A stretch of DNA of 64,000 nt from Pseudaquabacterium pictum. Its GTDB lineage: Bacteria > Pseudomonadota > Gammaproteobacteria > Burkholderiales > Burkholderiaceae_C. Numbering within the stretch: position 1 is the stretch's first letter; the number at the start of each line of letters is the position of its first letter. Both the position numbers and the translations under genes were made by a program. Of this stretch, positions 51,688-58,388 are shown piece after piece. The stretch is taken from contig NZ_BJCL01000010.1 of the NCBI RefSeq assembly GCF_005403045.1, positions 1-64,000 of the forward strand, read 5' to 3'. The notes below the pieces were generated by a model. That model had not been told where the DNA came from. It was given only the letters and a program-made list of their open reading frames with translations, and did no database searches.

Positions 51688-52632
51688 ATGACCCACCACA
51701 TCTTCGTCGACGGCCAGGAAGGCACCACCGGCCTGCGCATCCACGAGATGCTGGCCCGCCGCAGCGATGTGGAAGTGCTGCGCATCGACCCCGACAAGCG
51801 CAAGGACCCGGCCGAGCGTGCCCGCCTGCTGAACGCCGCCGACGTGGCCTTCCTCTGCCTGCCCGATGCCGCGGCCCGCGAGGCGGTGGCCCTGGTCGAC
51901 AACCCCAAGACCTGCATCATCGACGCCAGCACCGCCCACCGCACCGTGCCCGGCTGGACCTATGGCCTGCCCGAACTGGCCGCCGGCCAGCGCGAGGCCA
52001 TCCGCACGGGCAAGCGCATCGCCAATCCGGGCTGCCATGCCACCGCCTTCGTGCTGCTGCTGCGCCCGCTGGTGCAGGCCGGGCTGCTGCCGGCCGAGGC
52101 GGCGGTCAGCGCCACGTCGATCACCGGCTACTCGGGCGGCGGCAAGTCGATGATTGCGCAGTACGAGGCCGGCGGTGATGCGAAGCTGCAGAGCCCGCGG
52201 CCCTATGCGCTGGGCCTGGCGCACAAGCACCTGCCCGAGATGGTGGCCCACACCGGCCTGGCGCGGCCGCCGGTCTTCCTGCCGGTGGTGGCCAGCTTCT
52301 ACAAGGGCCTGGCCGTCAGCATCGGCCTGCAGCTCGACCAGTTCCGCCCCGGCACCACCGCCGCCCAGGTGCAGCAGGCGCTGGCCGCGCACTATGCCGG
52401 CGAGCGCTTCGTGCGGGTGCTGCCGCTGGCCGACCCGGAGACGCTGGCCGCCGGCTTCTTCGACGTGCAGGCCTGCAACGACACCAACAACGCCGATCTG
52501 TTCGTCTTCGCCAATGCCACGCAGGTGCTGCTGGTCAGCCGGCTCGACAACCTGGGCAAGGGCGCCAGCGGCGCCGCGGTGCAGGCGATGAACCTGCACC
52601 TGGGCGTGGACGAGGGCCTGGGCCTGGTCTGA
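51688..52632 (+). CDS. argC: N-acetyl-gamma-glutamyl-phosphate reductase (type 2)
   Basis: A 314-residue arginine-pathway enzyme reducing N-acetylglutamyl phosphate to the semialdehyde with [22 protein letters not shown] is the NADP-binding loop, Cys116 in NPGCHATA is the catalytic nucleophile, and [18 protein letters not shown] and [17 protein letters not shown] are typical. The short form (~310 residues) is the bacterial type 2 ArgC. It stands as a single gene with ATG at 51688. Its stop is 3 bp from the end of the convergent TIR gene. Confidence 0.95.
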
Positions 52633-52635
52633 GCC

Positions 52636-53616
52636 TCACGGCGGCGGCAGCCGCCGGGCCACCACCGCCACCGGCCCGTGCGGCTGTGCCGCCCCGGTGG
52701 TCTGCATCGTCAGCTGCAGGGTGTCGCCGACCAGGCGGCCGGTGTATTGGTGGGTCACCACCCGTTCCGGGCCGTTGCCCAGCACCTCGCTGCTGCGGGT
52801 GGTGAAGCGGACCTCGGCGCCGTTCACCTGGCCATCTTCGATGCCGCGCGGCACCCGCAGGAACGAGGCCGTGCCCTGCAGTGCCGTGCCCTCGCCCTGC
52901 AAGTCCAGCGTCTCGCGCAGGTCGCTGGCCATCCAGCCGTAGCGCACCTCGGCCTGCCAGCGGCCGTTGATGGCGAGGCGTGCGGGCAGGGCGGCCGTGC
53001 CGGGGTCCGCGCTGGATGGCGGGTGGGTGGCCGGCTGCAGCGCCCACCAGGCCGCGCCGGCCAGCGCGGTGGCCGCGGCAGCACCGGCCAGCAGCCGCAC
53101 CGCGCGGCGTCGGCCCGGTGGCGGCGGCGCTGGCGCGGCTGCCGCAACGCCCAGCGTCTGCTGCAGCACGGCCAGCAGTTGCTGGCTGTCGGCGGCAAAG
53201 CGCCGCGGGTCCATCACCAGCGCCTGGCGGCGCGCCAGCGGCTGCAGCGGGCCGGGCAGCTGGGCCTCCGCCGGCATCGCTGCGCCGTCGAACAGCAGCG
53301 GGATCACCTGCAGCCCGCCATCCAGCCCGGCCTGCACCTCGCGCCGCACCATGTCGTCGTCGTGGTGCAGCCTCGGCACGCCGTCGACCTGCGGCGCCAG
53401 CCAGCGCGGGCCGATCAGCACCAGCAGCACCCGCGCCTGGCCCATGGCCTGGGTGATGCGGGCGTCAAACGCCTGGCCGGCGCCGATGTCGTCGACATCG
53501 ATGAACACCCGCTCGGCGCCGAACTGCTGCGCCAGCAGGTCGTTCAGCGCCCGGGCGTAGCCGGCGGTGTCGTCGCGCCGGTAGCTCAGGAAGATCTGTG
53601 CCTGCGCTGTATTCAC
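52636..53616 (-). CDS. TIR-domain, single-pass membrane protein with C-terminal beta domain
   Basis: A 326-residue protein. Residues ~6-150 are a bacterial TIR_2-type domain: FLSYRRDD (9-16), GAERVFIDVDDIGAGQAFDA (33-52), LLVLIGPRWL (64-73), then MVRREVQAGLDGGLQVIPLL, where Glu93 aligns with the catalytic Glu of NAD-cleaving TIR domains. A Pro-rich linker (161-168) leads to one membrane segment (~174-194). The C-terminal ~110 residues (INGRWQAEVRYGWMASDLRE...) are beta-rich, lipocalin-like, unrecognised and on the far side. It overlaps the end of the BTAD/STAND gene by 4 bp (ATGA), so the two are one unit. NAD hydrolase activity is inferred. Confidence 0.87.
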   Translation of the reverse strand: MNTAQAQIFLSYRRDDTAGYARALNDLLAQQFGAERVFIDVDDIGAGQAFDARITQAMGQARVLLVLIGPRWLAPQVDGVPRLHHDDDMVRREVQAGLDGGLQVIPLLFDGAAMPAEAQLPGPLQPLARRQALVMDPRRFAADSQQLLAVLQQTLGVAAAAPAPPPPGRRRAVRLLAGAAAATALAGAAWWALQPATHPPSSADPGTAALPARLAINGRWQAEVRYGWMASDLRETLDLQGEGTALQGTASFLRVPRGIEDGQVNGAEVRFTTRSSEVLGNGPERVVTHQYTGRLVGDTLQLTMQTTGAAQPHGPVAVVARRLPPP

Positions 53617-56498
53617 CGCAGGCTCCCGTGCAGGGCCAGCCGCACCGCCTGGGCCAGTGGCAGCTGGGCACCCTCCGCGCGCCAGCGGGCCACATCATCG
53701 GCCGCGGCCTGGCAGCGGCACAGCCGCCACAGGCGGCGCAGCTCATGCCGATCGCCGGCACCCGGCGGGCCCAGCAGGCTGGCGTGGTGCGCGGCAAAGC
53801 CCATCAGCCGGGCGGCGGCCTCGGGCCGGCGGCCGTGGGCCCAGGCGCGCGGCAGGTTCCACAGGCCGTAGAGCAGCGGCCAGGGCTCGGCGGCCGCCCA
53901 GGCGGTGGCCACGCAGCCCTGGTAGGCGCGCGCCGCCTCGGGCCAGCGCCGCAGGCGGCTGAGCGCCTCGCCGCGCAGGTTGCTGGCCTGGGCCGCCTGC
54001 TGCAGGTCGCCCAGGGCCTGGGTGTCGGTCAGCACCTGGTCGAGCAGGGCCAGGGCTTCGGCGCAGCCGGCGGGTTGCTGCATCAGTGCCAGGGCCAGGT
54101 TGCAGCGGCCGACATGCACGCCATGCCGGTCGCCGGCGGTTTCCCACAGCGCGATGGCGCGGCGCTGCAGGGCCAGCGCCGCCGCGGGGTCGCGCCCGCG
54201 CAGCACCGCGCCCTGGTTGGTCAGGATGCCGGCCAGCAGCGCCGGCAGGCTGGCATCGGCCACCAGCGCCTGCGCCTCCTGCAGCCAGGCCAGGGCCGCC
54301 GGATCGCGCTGCAGGCGCCAGCGCACATGGGCCACGCGGGTCAGCACCAGCGCCCGCGGGATGCCGGGGCCGTGCCGCAGCGCTGTTGCATCGGACCGCT
54401 CGGCAGGGTCACTGGAGGCCAGCACCAGCCTGGCCTCGGCCGGTGGCAGCTCGGCCAGGGCCTGGTCGGCCAGGCGGCCGGCCTCGGCCATCCGGTTGGC
54501 CGCCAGTCCCTGGCGGGCCAGCGCGGCGCGGGTCACGGCGCGCAGCACCGGATCGACCAGCGTGTCGGCGCAGCGGTCCAGTGCAGCCAGGCTGCGGGGC
54601 GGCAGCGCGATCGCGCTGAACGCGGTCTGCGCCGCCAGCGCCAGGTGGGCCGCCTGCACCGGCGCGCCGTCGGTCTCGGCGGCCAGCAGCGCGGCGGCCA
54701 GGTTGGGCAGCTCGGGGCGCACCTGGTGCAGCGGGGTGGACAGCGGCAGGGCCGCCAGCCAGCCGGCCAGCCACTGGCGGTGGCGCGCCCGGCAGACCGC
54801 TGCGTCGGCCGCTGGCAACTGGCTGGCGGCGAATTCGCGCACCAGCTCGAACAGCAGGTAGCGGGTGCCGGCGCCGGCCTCGGCTGCGGGTTCGGCACGC
54901 AACAGCGAATGCGCCACCAGCTCATCCAGCGCCAGTGCCACGGTGACGGCCGGCGCATCGCCCAGCGCCTGCGCCGCCGCGGCGCTGAAGCTGCCGGCAA
55001 ACACCGACAGCCGCGGCAGCAGGGCCTGGGCCGGCGGCGGCAGCAGCTGCCAGCTCCACTGCACCACGGCCAGCATCGACGCATGCCGCGCATCGCCACC
55101 GGCCCGCGGCCCCGAGCGCGCCAGCAGGGCCAGCGCTGGTGCCGTGCCGGCGCCGGCCGGACCGCCGTGCTGCAGCAGCGCCAGCAGGTCGGCCGGCGAC
55201 AGGCTGCGCACCCGGGCGGCCGCCAGCTCGATGGCCAGCGGCATGCCCTGCAGCAGCCGCACCAGTGCCACCACCGCGGCGCGGTGGCCGGCCTCCAGCT
55301 GGAAGTCTGCCCGCACCGCGCGGGCGCGGTCGACGAACAGCGCCACCGCCGGGTTCAGCGCTGCCGCCTCGTCACTGGCCGGGGTGCCGGTTTCGTCGGC
55401 CGGCAGCGGCAACGGCGGCAAGGGGCGCTGGTGCTCGCCGTCCAGGCCCAGCGCCCGGCGCGAGGTGACCAGCAGGTGCAGCCCCGGGCAGCGCGCCAGC
55501 AGCGCGGCCACCAACGGGGCGCAGGCGTCGACCAGCTGCTCGAAGTTGTCCAGCACCAGCAGGCTGCGGCGGCCCGCCAGTGCCCCGGCCAGCGGATCCA
55601 GCGGATCGGCCGGGGCCGGGCCGCGGGCCTCCTGCCGCAGGGCCTGCAGCAGCGCCGCCAGCAGGGCTTCGGGCCGGGCATCGGCGCCCTGGCAGGCCAC
55701 CAGCGGCACGAAGGCCACCAGGTCGAAGCGCGGCGGCGGCGCCGTGCCGGCGGCCTGTTGCGGGCCCCAGCCGGCGCTGTCGGCCAGGCTGGCCGCCACC
55801 TCCACCGCCAGCCGGGTCTTGCCGAAGCCGCCCGGGCCCAGCAGCGTGACCAGGCGGTGCGCCTGGACCTCGGCGCGCAGCCCTGCGCCCACCGCATCGG
55901 CACCATGCAACTGGGTCAGGTAGTGCGGCAGGTTCAGCGCGCCGGGGCCGGCCACCGGTGCCGGGTAGGCCGGGGCGGCGGCCGGCTGCAGGCGGTCTGC
56001 CAGCGCGGCCAGGCGGCGGCGCTCGTCCAGGACCCAGTCGTCGTAGAAGCCGGGCAGCAACTCGCCGCGGTACAGGGCGGTGGCCTCGGCCTGGTGGCCC
56101 GCGCGCACCGCGGCCTCGAACTCGGTGGCGTCGCACTGCAGCTGGCGGCCGGCCAGGCGCACCGCCAGGCGGTCGGCGCTGATGATCTCCATGGGCCCGG
56201 CGCCGGCGGGACCGTCGAGCAGGCGCTTCAGCGTCGACAGCACCTGGCGCAGGCGGTTGCGGCCCACGTCCAGCGCCACACCGGGCCACAGCAGCTCCAC
56301 CAGCTCCTCGCGCGGATGGGCCCGTGCCGGTGCCAGCGCCAGGCGGGCCAGCAGGGCCGTGGCCGCGCGCCCGGGCAGGCGTTGCGGCCGCCCCTGGGCC
56401 GGGCGCAGCGCCACATCGCCCAGCAGCCGCAGGCGCCAGCGCGGCAGCTGCACGCCGGCAGCGGCGGCCTGGGCCGGATGGGGGGAGGCGGGGTTCAT
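53613..56498 (-). CDS. BTAD/STAND (NB-ARC-type) ATPase regulator
   Basis: A 961-residue AfsR/LuxR-like STAND protein. Residues ~20-115 form a winged-helix domain (LLARLALAPARAHPREELVE, LLWPGVALDVGRNRLRQVL). A short BTAD follows (ATALYRGELLPGFYDDWVLD), cut to about 60 residues rather than ~150. The NB-ARC-type ATPase has Walker A GPGGFGKTR (221-229), Walker B LLVLDNFEQL (313-322), the sensor-like LLVTSRRAL (342-350) and GMPLAIELAAARVR. The C-terminal ~400 residues are helical TPR-like. By homology it should oligomerise on a signal and act on DNA or a partner. The partner encoded by overlap is the TIR membrane protein. Confidence 0.87.
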   Translation of the reverse strand: MNPASPHPAQAAAAGVQLPRWRLRLLGDVALRPAQGRPQRLPGRAATALLARLALAPARAHPREELVELLWPGVALDVGRNRLRQVLSTLKRLLDGPAGAGPMEIISADRLAVRLAGRQLQCDATEFEAAVRAGHQAEATALYRGELLPGFYDDWVLDERRRLAALADRLQPAAAPAYPAPVAGPGALNLPHYLTQLHGADAVGAGLRAEVQAHRLVTLLGPGGFGKTRLAVEVAASLADSAGWGPQQAAGTAPPPRFDLVAFVPLVACQGADARPEALLAALLQALRQEARGPAPADPLDPLAGALAGRRSLLVLDNFEQLVDACAPLVAALLARCPGLHLLVTSRRALGLDGEHQRPLPPLPLPADETGTPASDEAAALNPAVALFVDRARAVRADFQLEAGHRAAVVALVRLLQGMPLAIELAAARVRSLSPADLLALLQHGGPAGAGTAPALALLARSGPRAGGDARHASMLAVVQWSWQLLPPPAQALLPRLSVFAGSFSAAAAQALGDAPAVTVALALDELVAHSLLRAEPAAEAGAGTRYLLFELVREFAASQLPAADAAVCRARHRQWLAGWLAALPLSTPLHQVRPELPNLAAALLAAETDGAPVQAAHLALAAQTAFSAIALPPRSLAALDRCADTLVDPVLRAVTRAALARQGLAANRMAEAGRLADQALAELPPAEARLVLASSDPAERSDATALRHGPGIPRALVLTRVAHVRWRLQRDPAALAWLQEAQALVADASLPALLAGILTNQGAVLRGRDPAAALALQRRAIALWETAGDRHGVHVGRCNLALALMQQPAGCAEALALLDQVLTDTQALGDLQQAAQASNLRGEALSRLRRWPEAARAYQGCVATAWAAAEPWPLLYGLWNLPRAWAHGRRPEAAARLMGFAAHHASLLGPPGAGDRHELRRLWRLCRCQAAADDVARWRAEGAQLPLAQAVRLALHGSLR

Positions 56499-56702
56499 GG
56501 CCGGTGCTGTCGGATTGTAGGAAGCCGCACCCGGCGCCGGGGTGGGTGGAACTCCCCGGAGCAGGGGGCGCGCGAGGCTTGGAAACCTAGCGCGTGAAAA
56601 ACGCGTCCACCCGGATGCGGGTTGGCCCGCGGCTATCGAATGCCCTGATGAGTCGCCGTGGGTGGCTCGGGGAGAATCGCGCTCCATTCCTGGAGCCGCT
56701 TG

Positions 56703-58388
56703 ATGCAGAAGATCTGGCTGAAGCAGTACCCCGCCGGTGTGCCGGCCGAGGTGAAGACCGACCTCTACCCGTCGCTGGTGGCGCTGGTGGACGAGAGCTT
56801 CCGCACCCACCGCGACCGCACGGCCTACAAGTTCATGGGTGCGTCGTTCACATTCGGCGCCATCGACGATGCCTCGCGCGCGCTGGCCGCGTGGCTGCAG
56901 GGCAGCGGCCTGCAGCGTGGCGACCGTGTCGCGCTGATGATGCCCAACGTGCCGCAGTACCCGGTGGCGGTGGCCGCGGTGCTGCGCGCCGGCCTGGTGG
57001 TGGTGAACGTGAACCCGCTCTACACCCCGCGCGAGCTGGAGCACCAGCTCAAGGATTCCGGCGCCAAGGCCATCATCATCCTGGAGAACTTTGCCGCCAC
57101 GCTGGCCCAGGTGATCGACCAGGTGCCCACCAAGACTGTGGTGCTGGCCGCCATGGGCGACATGCTGGGCCTGGTCAAGGGCGCGCTGGTCAACCACGTG
57201 GTGCGCCGGGTCAAGAAGCTGGTGCCGCCGTTCAGCCTGCCGGCCGGCGTGGCCACCACCCGCTTCACCGATGCCGTGGCGCGCGGCCGCCGCCTCACGC
57301 TGGCGCCGGCGGCGGTGGGCCCCGACGACATCGCCGTGCTGCAGTACACCGGTGGCACCACCGGCGTGAGCAAGGGCGCGGTGCTGCTGCACCGCAACCT
57401 GGTGGCCAACATCCTGCAGGCCGAGGCCTGGTACCAGCCGGCACTGAAGAAGATCCCCGCCGGCCAGCAGATCGTCACCGTCTGTGCCCTGCCGCTGTAC
57501 CACATCTTCGGCTTCAACACGAACATGATGCTGGGCCTGCGCATGGGCGGCTGCAACATCCTGATCGCCAACCCGCGCGACATCCCGGCGTTGCTGAAGG
57601 ACCTGGCGGCCCAGCCCTTCCACAGCTTTCCGGCCGTCAACACCTTGTTCACCGCCATCGCCAACCATCCCGATTTCGACAAGGTCGACTGGAGCCACCT
57701 GAAGATCAGCGTGGGCGGCGGCATGGCCGTCACCCAGGGCACGGCGCGGCTGTGGCTGGAGAAGACCGGCTGCCCGATCTGCGAAGGCTATGGCTTGAGC
57801 GAGACCAGCCCCTCGGCCACCTGCAATCCGGTGGACAGCACCGCCTACAGCGGCACCATCGGCCTGCCCATGCCCAGCACCGAGCTGGTGCTGCTCGACG
57901 ACGACGGGAACGAAGTGGCGCCCGGCCAGGCCGGCGAGATCGCCATCCGCGGCCCGCAGGTGATGGCCGGCTACTGGCAGCGGCCCGACGAGACCGCCAA
58001 GGTGATGACCGCCGACGGTTTCTTCCGCACTGGCGATGTGGGCCTGATGGACGAGCGCGGCCACTTCCGCATCGTCGACCGCAAGAAGGACATGATCCTG
58101 GTCTCGGGCTTCAACGTGTACCCCAACGAGATCGAGGACGTGCTGAGCCAGTTGCCCGGCGTGCTGGAGTGCGCCGCCGTGGGCATTCCCGACGAGAAGG
58201 CCGGCGAGGCGGTGAAGGTGGTCATCGTCAAGAAGGACCCGGCGCTGACCGAGGCGGCCGTGCGGGCCTACTGCGAGGCCAACCTCACCGGTTACAAGCG
58301 GCCCAAGGTGGTGGAGTTCCGCAACGACCTGCCCAAGACCACGGTGGGCAAGATCCTGCGGCGTGAGTTGCGAGAGGCCAGACGGTGA
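56703..58388 (+). CDS. fadD: Long-chain fatty-acid-CoA ligase
   Basis: A 561-residue AMP-binding enzyme. YTGGTTGVSKGAVLLHRNLV is the P-loop, GYGLSETSPSATCNP the adenine motif, GEIAIRGPQVMAGYW and TGDVGLMDERGHFRIVDRKK the hinge region, and KTTVGKILRREL the C-terminal catalytic Lys. It activates long-chain fatty acids to acyl-CoA. Length and motifs match FadD. An upstream in-frame start at 56658 would add a non-conserved leader. The stop overlaps the GTG of the next gene (GTGA). It is divergent from the STAND/TIR operon across 204 bp. Confidence 0.92.
   Translation: MQKIWLKQYPAGVPAEVKTDLYPSLVALVDESFRTHRDRTAYKFMGASFTFGAIDDASRALAAWLQGSGLQRGDRVALMMPNVPQYPVAVAAVLRAGLVVVNVNPLYTPRELEHQLKDSGAKAIIILENFAATLAQVIDQVPTKTVVLAAMGDMLGLVKGALVNHVVRRVKKLVPPFSLPAGVATTRFTDAVARGRRLTLAPAAVGPDDIAVLQYTGGTTGVSKGAVLLHRNLVANILQAEAWYQPALKKIPAGQQIVTVCALPLYHIFGFNTNMMLGLRMGGCNILIANPRDIPALLKDLAAQPFHSFPAVNTLFTAIANHPDFDKVDWSHLKISVGGGMAVTQGTARLWLEKTGCPICEGYGLSETSPSATCNPVDSTAYSGTIGLPMPSTELVLLDDDGNEVAPGQAGEIAIRGPQVMAGYWQRPDETAKVMTADGFFRTGDVGLMDERGHFRIVDRKKDMILVSGFNVYPNEIEDVLSQLPGVLECAAVGIPDEKAGEAVKVVIVKKDPALTEAAVRAYCEANLTGYKRPKVVEFRNDLPKTTVGKILRRELREARR

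Follow-up and report, generated by a model that had tools for sequence, protein, structure and literature searches.

A STAND-type regulator gene and a TIR gene overlap by 4 base pairs (bp) in the genome of Pseudaquabacterium pictum, which raises the question of whether they form a conserved two-part module or two separate systems that share a site. Both genes lie on the reverse strand of a 64,000-nucleotide stretch of contig NZ_BJCL01000010.1 (hereafter the window, meaning this whole stretch). An earlier note on this DNA had described the two genes and their overlap correctly and had proposed that the pair is coupled, with its conservation as neighbours and in defence islands as the point to check. 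The pair was found together in none of the relatives examined. We consider it rather likely that the locus holds separate modules, a self-contained receptor with a SARM1-type TIR domain and an AfsR-like regulator, which are probably co-transcribed in this lineage alone.

The gene pair in relatives

Homologues of the STAND protein were collected at an expectation value (E) of 1e-40 in 21 genomes of the genus and of 1e-60 in 399 genomes of the family, which gave 36 homologues from 29 other genomes, fetched as 35 loci. A TIR profile search of the 35 loci recovered no TIR domain in any of them. A scan of the 29 genomes with the Pfam family TIR_2, in which some contigs were short, placed no match within 45 kb of a STAND gene (36 genes, distances along one contig). 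TIR_2 matches are present in 16 of the 29 STAND-bearing genomes, with the match nearest to a STAND gene found in genome G411. Starting from the TIR side, a tblastn search of 68 loci with the STAND protein returned only the window and further STAND genes of its own genome, and nothing in the 15 loci of the closest TIR relatives (L015 to L029), for all of which only the immediate neighbour is covered because the shortest upstream flank is about 400 bases (L025). A phmmer search of all reading frames in eight more distinct TIR loci (L089 and L146 to L152) found no STAND homologue either. The distinct TIR loci without a STAND gene thus number 23, with L143, L144, L145 and L153, on contigs of equal length to those of L025, L022, L026 and L019, respectively, counted once. 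The STAND family and this type of TIR gene occur in the same genome, never adjacent, in G001, G017, G025, G065, G152, G292, G348 and G411, and in G017 they sit on different contigs.

The earlier note had itself named absence of the pair from relatives as the observation that would speak against coupling. No second example was found among the 36 STAND genes or the 23 TIR loci, and a coupled STAND-TIR module was rejected on this non-conservation from both sides. The negative is a useful one: a 4-bp overlap in a single genome was no evidence for a conserved pair.

As to location in defence islands, PADLOC at E 1e-5 matched none of ten neighbours chosen from the TIR loci of eight relatives (frames from our own gene picker), a small sample that gives defence-island membership no support. 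No known anti-phage system as a whole was matched by the window proteins in PADLOC, whose models reached only the TIR stretch of the TIR protein (best E 8e-8; ThsB at E 4e-5) and, with a single match at E 0.0024, the nucleoside triphosphatase (NTPase) stretch of the STAND protein. The Thoeris and other TIR models of NCBIfam scored far below their cut-offs on the TIR protein (ThcB4 at 36.2 bits against 220). The titles and abstract openings listed by searches of open-licence papers gave no description of this TIR architecture or of a pairing of a STAND/BTAD protein with a TIR protein.

The TIR protein and its domains

The plan given earlier for the TIR protein, a TIR domain followed by one membrane segment and an unrecognised beta domain, agrees with the family matches and the structural model. 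TIR_2 reaches 45.7 bits against a Pfam cut-off of 28 bits and is the sole Pfam family above its cut-off. The domain is homologous to that of SARM1, an enzyme of nerve death, as judged by sequence comparison. Among matches in the PDB, SARM1 or TIR-1 account for 18 of 20 found by phmmer, the other two being glutaredoxins (E 0.085 and 0.22), and for 19 of 20 found by a TIR profile (E about 1e-15), the remaining one being a designed filament (E 0.045). No other solved TIR domain was found there by sequence up to E 1 with phmmer or 0.5 with the profile, which groups the domain with enzymatic rather than adaptor TIRs. Foldseek ranked SARM1/TIR-1 in the top 15 places for the modelled domain, followed by plant TIRs, SPARTA, AbTir and a Toll-related TIR. 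A control TIR of another type from the same genome (L006) had no PDB match up to E 0.5, and both of the tested proteins with the same TIR type and other C-termini (L002 and L054) match SARM1. The conservation claimed for Glu93 is borne out: all 15 aligned relatives have this residue, which aligns with the catalytic glutamate of SARM1 (E642). The stretch Y12-R13-R14 and G47 are invariant in the same 15 relatives.

AlphaFold2 models the protein at a mean predicted local distance difference test (pLDDT) score of 82 and a predicted template modelling (TM) score of 0.54, with a helix at residues 169-192 and an all-beta domain at residues 218-323. Lysine and arginine are in excess before the hydrophobic stretch in 16 of 22 relatives, the window protein included, with a tie in five and the reverse in one. 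From this charge bias the TIR domain would be cytosolic and the beta domain outside, probably in the periplasm.

The beta domain is indeed without a recognised family: the window member has no Pfam match at E 1, and two Pfam families each weakly match one of 13 members (best E 0.0057). Modelled alone (pLDDT 90.6), it forms a calycin-like barrel, whose PDB neighbours, among 50 of 1329, are mainly Rv2717c and nitrobindins, avidins, lipocalins, fatty-acid-binding proteins and Cap15. Calycins are marked by an up-and-down beta-barrel, an N-terminal GxW and a C-terminal arginine. A G-x-W motif and a C-terminal arginine are invariant in 13 of 13 members of the barrel family, with fold matches that are weak (E 4.8e-3 or worse). 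We read the barrel as a new small domain that may sense a chemical. A barrel profile matched in six of 200 family genomes, each time with a TIR domain in the same frame; G109 has an additional barrel fragment without a TIR in its frame (L163), and in G292 the TIR and barrel halves fall in different frames. In 300 genomes of the order the seven matches were the window, a TIR fusion (L178), L177 and four weak ones, and in 398 genomes of the phylum the window was the only match. These counts are lower bounds because the initial pass of the search evaluates few candidates in each genome. The four weak relatives (L179 to L182) form the C-terminal part of methyltransferase-like proteins whose N-termini resemble export signals, which supports the periplasmic topology.

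Among 43 distinct TIR frames of this type, 33 carry a 19-residue hydropathy window above 1.6 after the TIR domain, with the window protein, at 1.57, just under this mark. The scanned proteins of this type end in differing domains or in none known. A paralogue in the source genome (L002:1495-2949, C2:181685) combines this TIR type with a hydrophobic helix and MORN repeats, and contigs titled Ilumatobacter and Thauera (L030:7968-9821 and L031:7824-9737) encode PASTA repeats or an FGE-sulfatase domain after the TIR domain and a hydrophobic helix. Two relatives (L066:2178-3644 and L067:2-1468) have a further, weak TIR frame that overlaps the first or lies next to it. An 8-Mb genome of the same genus (G020) has six of its 24 TIR_2 matches within about 33 kb (C3:8214-40916).

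The regulator and the history of its site

The STAND protein has the domain order winged helix, BTAD, NTPase and TPR, with Pfam matches in the window protein (NTPase, Trans_reg_C, TPR) that are each below their own cut-off. Trans_reg_C reaches E 0.012 in the window protein and matches 12 of 20 aligned family members at E 0.01 or lower, the alignment comprising the window protein and 19 of the 36 relatives at 38-63% identity. The P-loop and the recognition-helix residues are kept across this alignment, with G79, R82, L83 and R84 invariant in all 20 sequences. A family profile found AfsR as its best solved relative (E 2.6e-17, profile positions 130-782), with TPR proteins, plant NLRs and Apaf-1 ranking after it; the window sequence alone had no phmmer match in the PDB up to E 1. 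The BTAD had been called unusually short. It is short, and shorter than that of AfsR, but not for its family: the winged-helix start and the P-loop are 199 residues apart in the window protein and 167-237 apart in the other aligned rows (some of them duplicate or partial copies), so that a short BTAD is a trait of the family as a whole. The shift from DNA binding to signalling that it had been taken to hint at is not supported, given the invariant recognition-helix residues and the family-wide occurrence of the short form. Our reading from sequence is that of an AfsR-like local transcription regulator whose neighbour gene changes and for which NTP-dependent activation is predicted. The genes downstream of its homologues vary, many having a signal-peptide-like or exported look by our own reading, and at some loci the downstream gene lies on the other strand or no co-directional gene follows. 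The counts of downstream genes and promoter elements cover 35 of the 36 STAND genes, with L125 left out and with the start positions of L085 and L120 estimated.

Upstream, the locus is bordered by a divergent long-chain acyl-coenzyme A (CoA) ligase gene, and beyond the TIR gene by argC. In L015 and L016 a TIR gene lies between the same CoA ligase and argC with no STAND gene between. The CoA ligase is 95% identical to that of the window in L015 and 92% in L016 (a partial copy), argC is 94% and 88.5% identical, and the TIR protein 73% and 64%, so that the TIR gene diverges more rapidly than the two genes beside it. The same CoA ligase occurs within about 2.4 kb in 12 of the 35 STAND loci, a count bounded by the flank fetched, and is directly divergent in seven. 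In a tree of 18 CoA-ligase sequences, the window clusters with L015, L016, L028 and L089 at 100/100; all five have a TIR gene beside the CoA ligase, and only the window has a STAND gene as well. Pairwise ratios of nonsynonymous to synonymous substitution (dN/dS) for the TIR gene and its parts range from 0.35 to 1.08, the highest being for the barrel against L017, and nothing is drawn from them because extreme guanine-cytosine content at third positions compresses dS.

The upstream regions of the window STAND gene and of the L015 TIR gene can be aligned down to a promoter-like TTCCTACAAT, which reads TTTCTACAAT in L015. The motif TTCCTA[CG]AAT, present before the window STAND gene, is also found near the start of six of the 35 others (background frequency 0.004 per 400 nucleotides), and in L119 it falls 93 nucleotides inside the picked start. 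The lone TIR genes of L017, L018, L028 and L089 have a different promoter-like sequence, GCTATGCT, identified by eye with no background computed. In its simplest reading, L015 looks like a locus from which the STAND gene was deleted, leaving the TIR gene behind the STAND promoter. Two orders of events are not settled: a TIR gene that joined behind the STAND gene, which was later lost, is favoured by the promoter relic in L015, and a TIR gene that replaced the STAND gene, which later came back, is favoured by a simple count of events. A profile search found no STAND remnants between the CoA ligase and the TIR gene in L015, L016, L017, L028 and L089 (best E about 0.4). A STAND-like tblastn match in L017 without composition correction (E 6e-5) was rejected as composition because the same stretch is occupied by a different long open frame, which looks like a PEP-CTERM-type exported protein. 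The site beside the CoA ligase (window 56499-56702 and relatives) is variable and may hold a STAND gene, a TIR gene, both, a PEP-CTERM-type gene or other genes. In L017 the TIR gene faces, in convergent orientation, genes whose translations resemble NAD(P) transhydrogenase subunits by our own reading (L017:8934-11964).

Features of the locus are collected in Table 1. No transfer RNA genes were found in the window. The source genome comprises 6.1 Mb in 64 contigs; TIR_2 matches it nine times and the STAND profile thirteen times, the latter in several cases only in part.

Table 1. Positions of the two genes, their domains and the flanking features in the window.
Feature	Position	Strand	Remarks
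AfsR-like regulator gene (winged helix, short BTAD, STAND NTPase, TPR)	53613..56498	-	961 amino acids, ATG start
Winged-helix DNA-binding domain, residues 21-97	56208..56438	-	Trans_reg_C matches and invariant recognition-helix residues
Short BTAD-like segment, residues 98-165	56004..56207	-	own reading of sequence; relatives fall in the same length class
P-loop GPGGFGKT of the STAND NTPase	55815..55838	-	kept in alignment
TIR, membrane helix and barrel gene	52636..53616	-	326 amino acids, GTG start, 4-bp overlap with STAND stop
SARM1-type TIR domain, residues 6-155	53152..53601	-	Pfam, PDB sequence matches, AlphaFold2, Foldseek
Glu93 codon	53338..53340	-	aligned with SARM1 catalytic Glu
Probable transmembrane helix, residues 169-192	53041..53112	-	Arg-rich N-terminal side; modelled helix, low local confidence
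Nine-strand calycin-like barrel, residues 218-323, C-terminal, predicted periplasmic	52648..52965	-	model and fold matches
Promoter-like element TTCCTACAAT	56514..56523	-	common to some other STAND genes; near-copy before lone L015 TIR gene
Long-chain acyl-CoA ligase, divergent flank	56703..58388	+	synteny anchor outside the system; named from translation
argC, convergent flank	51688..52632	+	synteny anchor outside the system; named from translation

Competing explanations and known systems

Under the explanation by separate modules, the TIR gene would encode a self-contained, single-pass receptor of the inner membrane, with the TIR domain in the cytosol, one helix in the membrane and the barrel on the periplasmic side. 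Binding of a small molecule or of a signal from the envelope to the barrel would probably cause the TIR domains to cluster or rearrange, upon which they would cleave nicotinamide adenine dinucleotide (NAD+) by way of Glu93 and slow the cell down or kill it. The product of the STAND gene would be an NTP-dependent transcription regulator that may set TIR expression through co-transcription, the TIR gene having presumably been captured behind the STAND promoter in this lineage.

Several observations weigh against this account. The comparison of Glu93 with TIR enzymes that cleave NAD+ holds for the residue itself and not for two SARM1 pocket features. Passages of a 2020 survey (PMC7075850) give a pocket tryptophan and the BB-loop motif E-(R/K)-L-E-A-G as SARM1-type features, beside which the window protein shows whole-domain homology and the catalytic glutamate and lacks both of the others: the tryptophan, four residues before the glutamate, is replaced by Met89 here and by Phe, Leu or Val in relatives, and DDIGAG stands in the BB loop in place of EKLEAG, with Asp-Asp for Glu-Lys. 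These two replacements mean that enzymatic activity is not assured. The same passages report the first, second and sixth of the BB-loop residues as important for catalysis and the catalytic glutamate also in TIRs without reported activity. The modelled helix lies in a low-confidence stretch (10-residue means of 42-57), so that the membrane segment rests mainly on a hydropathy that is itself moderate (1.57 in a 19-residue window). The fold matches of the barrel are weak (best E 4.8e-3, TM scores mostly 0.4-0.6) and indicate no ligand, and L177:1318-1836, a 173-residue frame, has the helix and barrel with no TIR match in the fetched flank. The CoA-ligase tree and the L015 promoter suggest that the pair is older than the source genome alone, and the 4-bp overlap implies translational coupling in the source genome that could be functional.

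The last two points bear on a genuine two-part module, in which the STAND protein would sense a signal and directly activate the TIR protein. We regard such a module as improbable, even with the overlap, the promoter-like element before the STAND gene, a pairing that may date to an ancestor shared with L015, and the TIR and STAND parts that occur together in other conflict systems described in passages of PMC7159879. It lacks a second example in the 35 STAND loci, the 29 genomes scanned with TIR_2 and the 23 TIR loci; the nearest TIR orthologues occupy this site without a STAND gene, and G017 keeps both genes on different contigs. A purely regulatory capture, with the STAND protein as local activator, the TIR gene as its current target and no contact between the proteins, has close to an even chance in our view and is compatible with the explanation by separate modules, which it sharpens. 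The shared TTCCTA[CG]AAT element and the varied, often signal-peptide-like genes that follow STAND genes fit such a capture; the element is absent at 29 of 35 STAND genes, and some STAND loci offer no co-directional gene as a target.

The TIR protein itself could be read in two other ways. Replacement of the pocket tryptophan by methionine and the altered BB loop would suit a non-enzymatic scaffold or adaptor, which seems unlikely given that Glu93, Y12-R13-R14 and G47 are invariant in all 15 relatives and that the solved relatives found by sequence are NAD+ hydrolases. Alternatively, the helix might not span the membrane and the barrel might bind a nucleotide messenger in the cytosol, as in Cap15. 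Cyclic-dinucleotide receptor barrels of Cap15 do appear among the fold matches, at ranks 23 and 48, and the helix is modelled with low confidence; this reading is very improbable, as a single hydrophobic stretch, positively charged on its TIR side, separates the TIR domain from the barrel, and the weak barrel relatives end proteins with export-signal-like N-termini.

The TIR protein is new in joining a SARM1-type TIR domain, through what is probably a membrane helix, to a new barrel domain. We tentatively suggest, as a possibility we would not lean on, that it is a one-protein bacterial counterpart of Toll-like receptors, in which a periplasmic, ligand-binding barrel of calycin type switches on a SARM1-type TIR NADase across the inner membrane, and that it belongs to a wider set of SARM1-like bacterial TIR proteins, with exchangeable C-terminal domains behind a membrane helix, near the bacterial stock that gave rise to the TIR domain of animal SARM1. 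If so, bacteria would wire an outside sensor directly to a SARM1-type enzyme in one polypeptide, and the protein would offer a small, testable system for ligand-driven activation of a TIR enzyme across a membrane. The protein also bears on the origin of SARM1, on which two sources differ: passages of PMC7075850 state that its own analysis failed to find bacterial SARM1 homologues, and a 2026 preprint (PMC13142454) places SARM1 inside a mainly bacterial TIR clade.

Likeness to the Thoeris proteins ThcB4 and ThsB is confined to matches of the TIR stretch; the architecture differs, the window neighbours read as argC and CoA ligase, and no search was aimed at ThsA. Cap15, the barrel effector of the anti-phage system CBASS, shares a small beta-barrel at the level of fold only and is without a TIR domain. 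The Cap15 barrel is cytosolic, with helices that precede it. The regulator is closest to AfsR, the SARP-type STAND regulator of Streptomyces, which is the best solved relative of its profile and has the same domain order by our own reading, with a longer BTAD. SARM1 and TIR-1 share homology over profile positions 5-149 with the TIR protein, including the catalytic glutamate and the YRR, VFIDV and DG-P-LP stretches, whereas the window protein is without ARM or SAM domains and carries a helix and a barrel instead. The bacterial TIR proteins with a helix and MORN, PASTA or FGE-sulfatase domains match in their TIR domain by the same profile and in the hydrophobic stretch that follows it, and differ from the window protein in the C-terminal domain.

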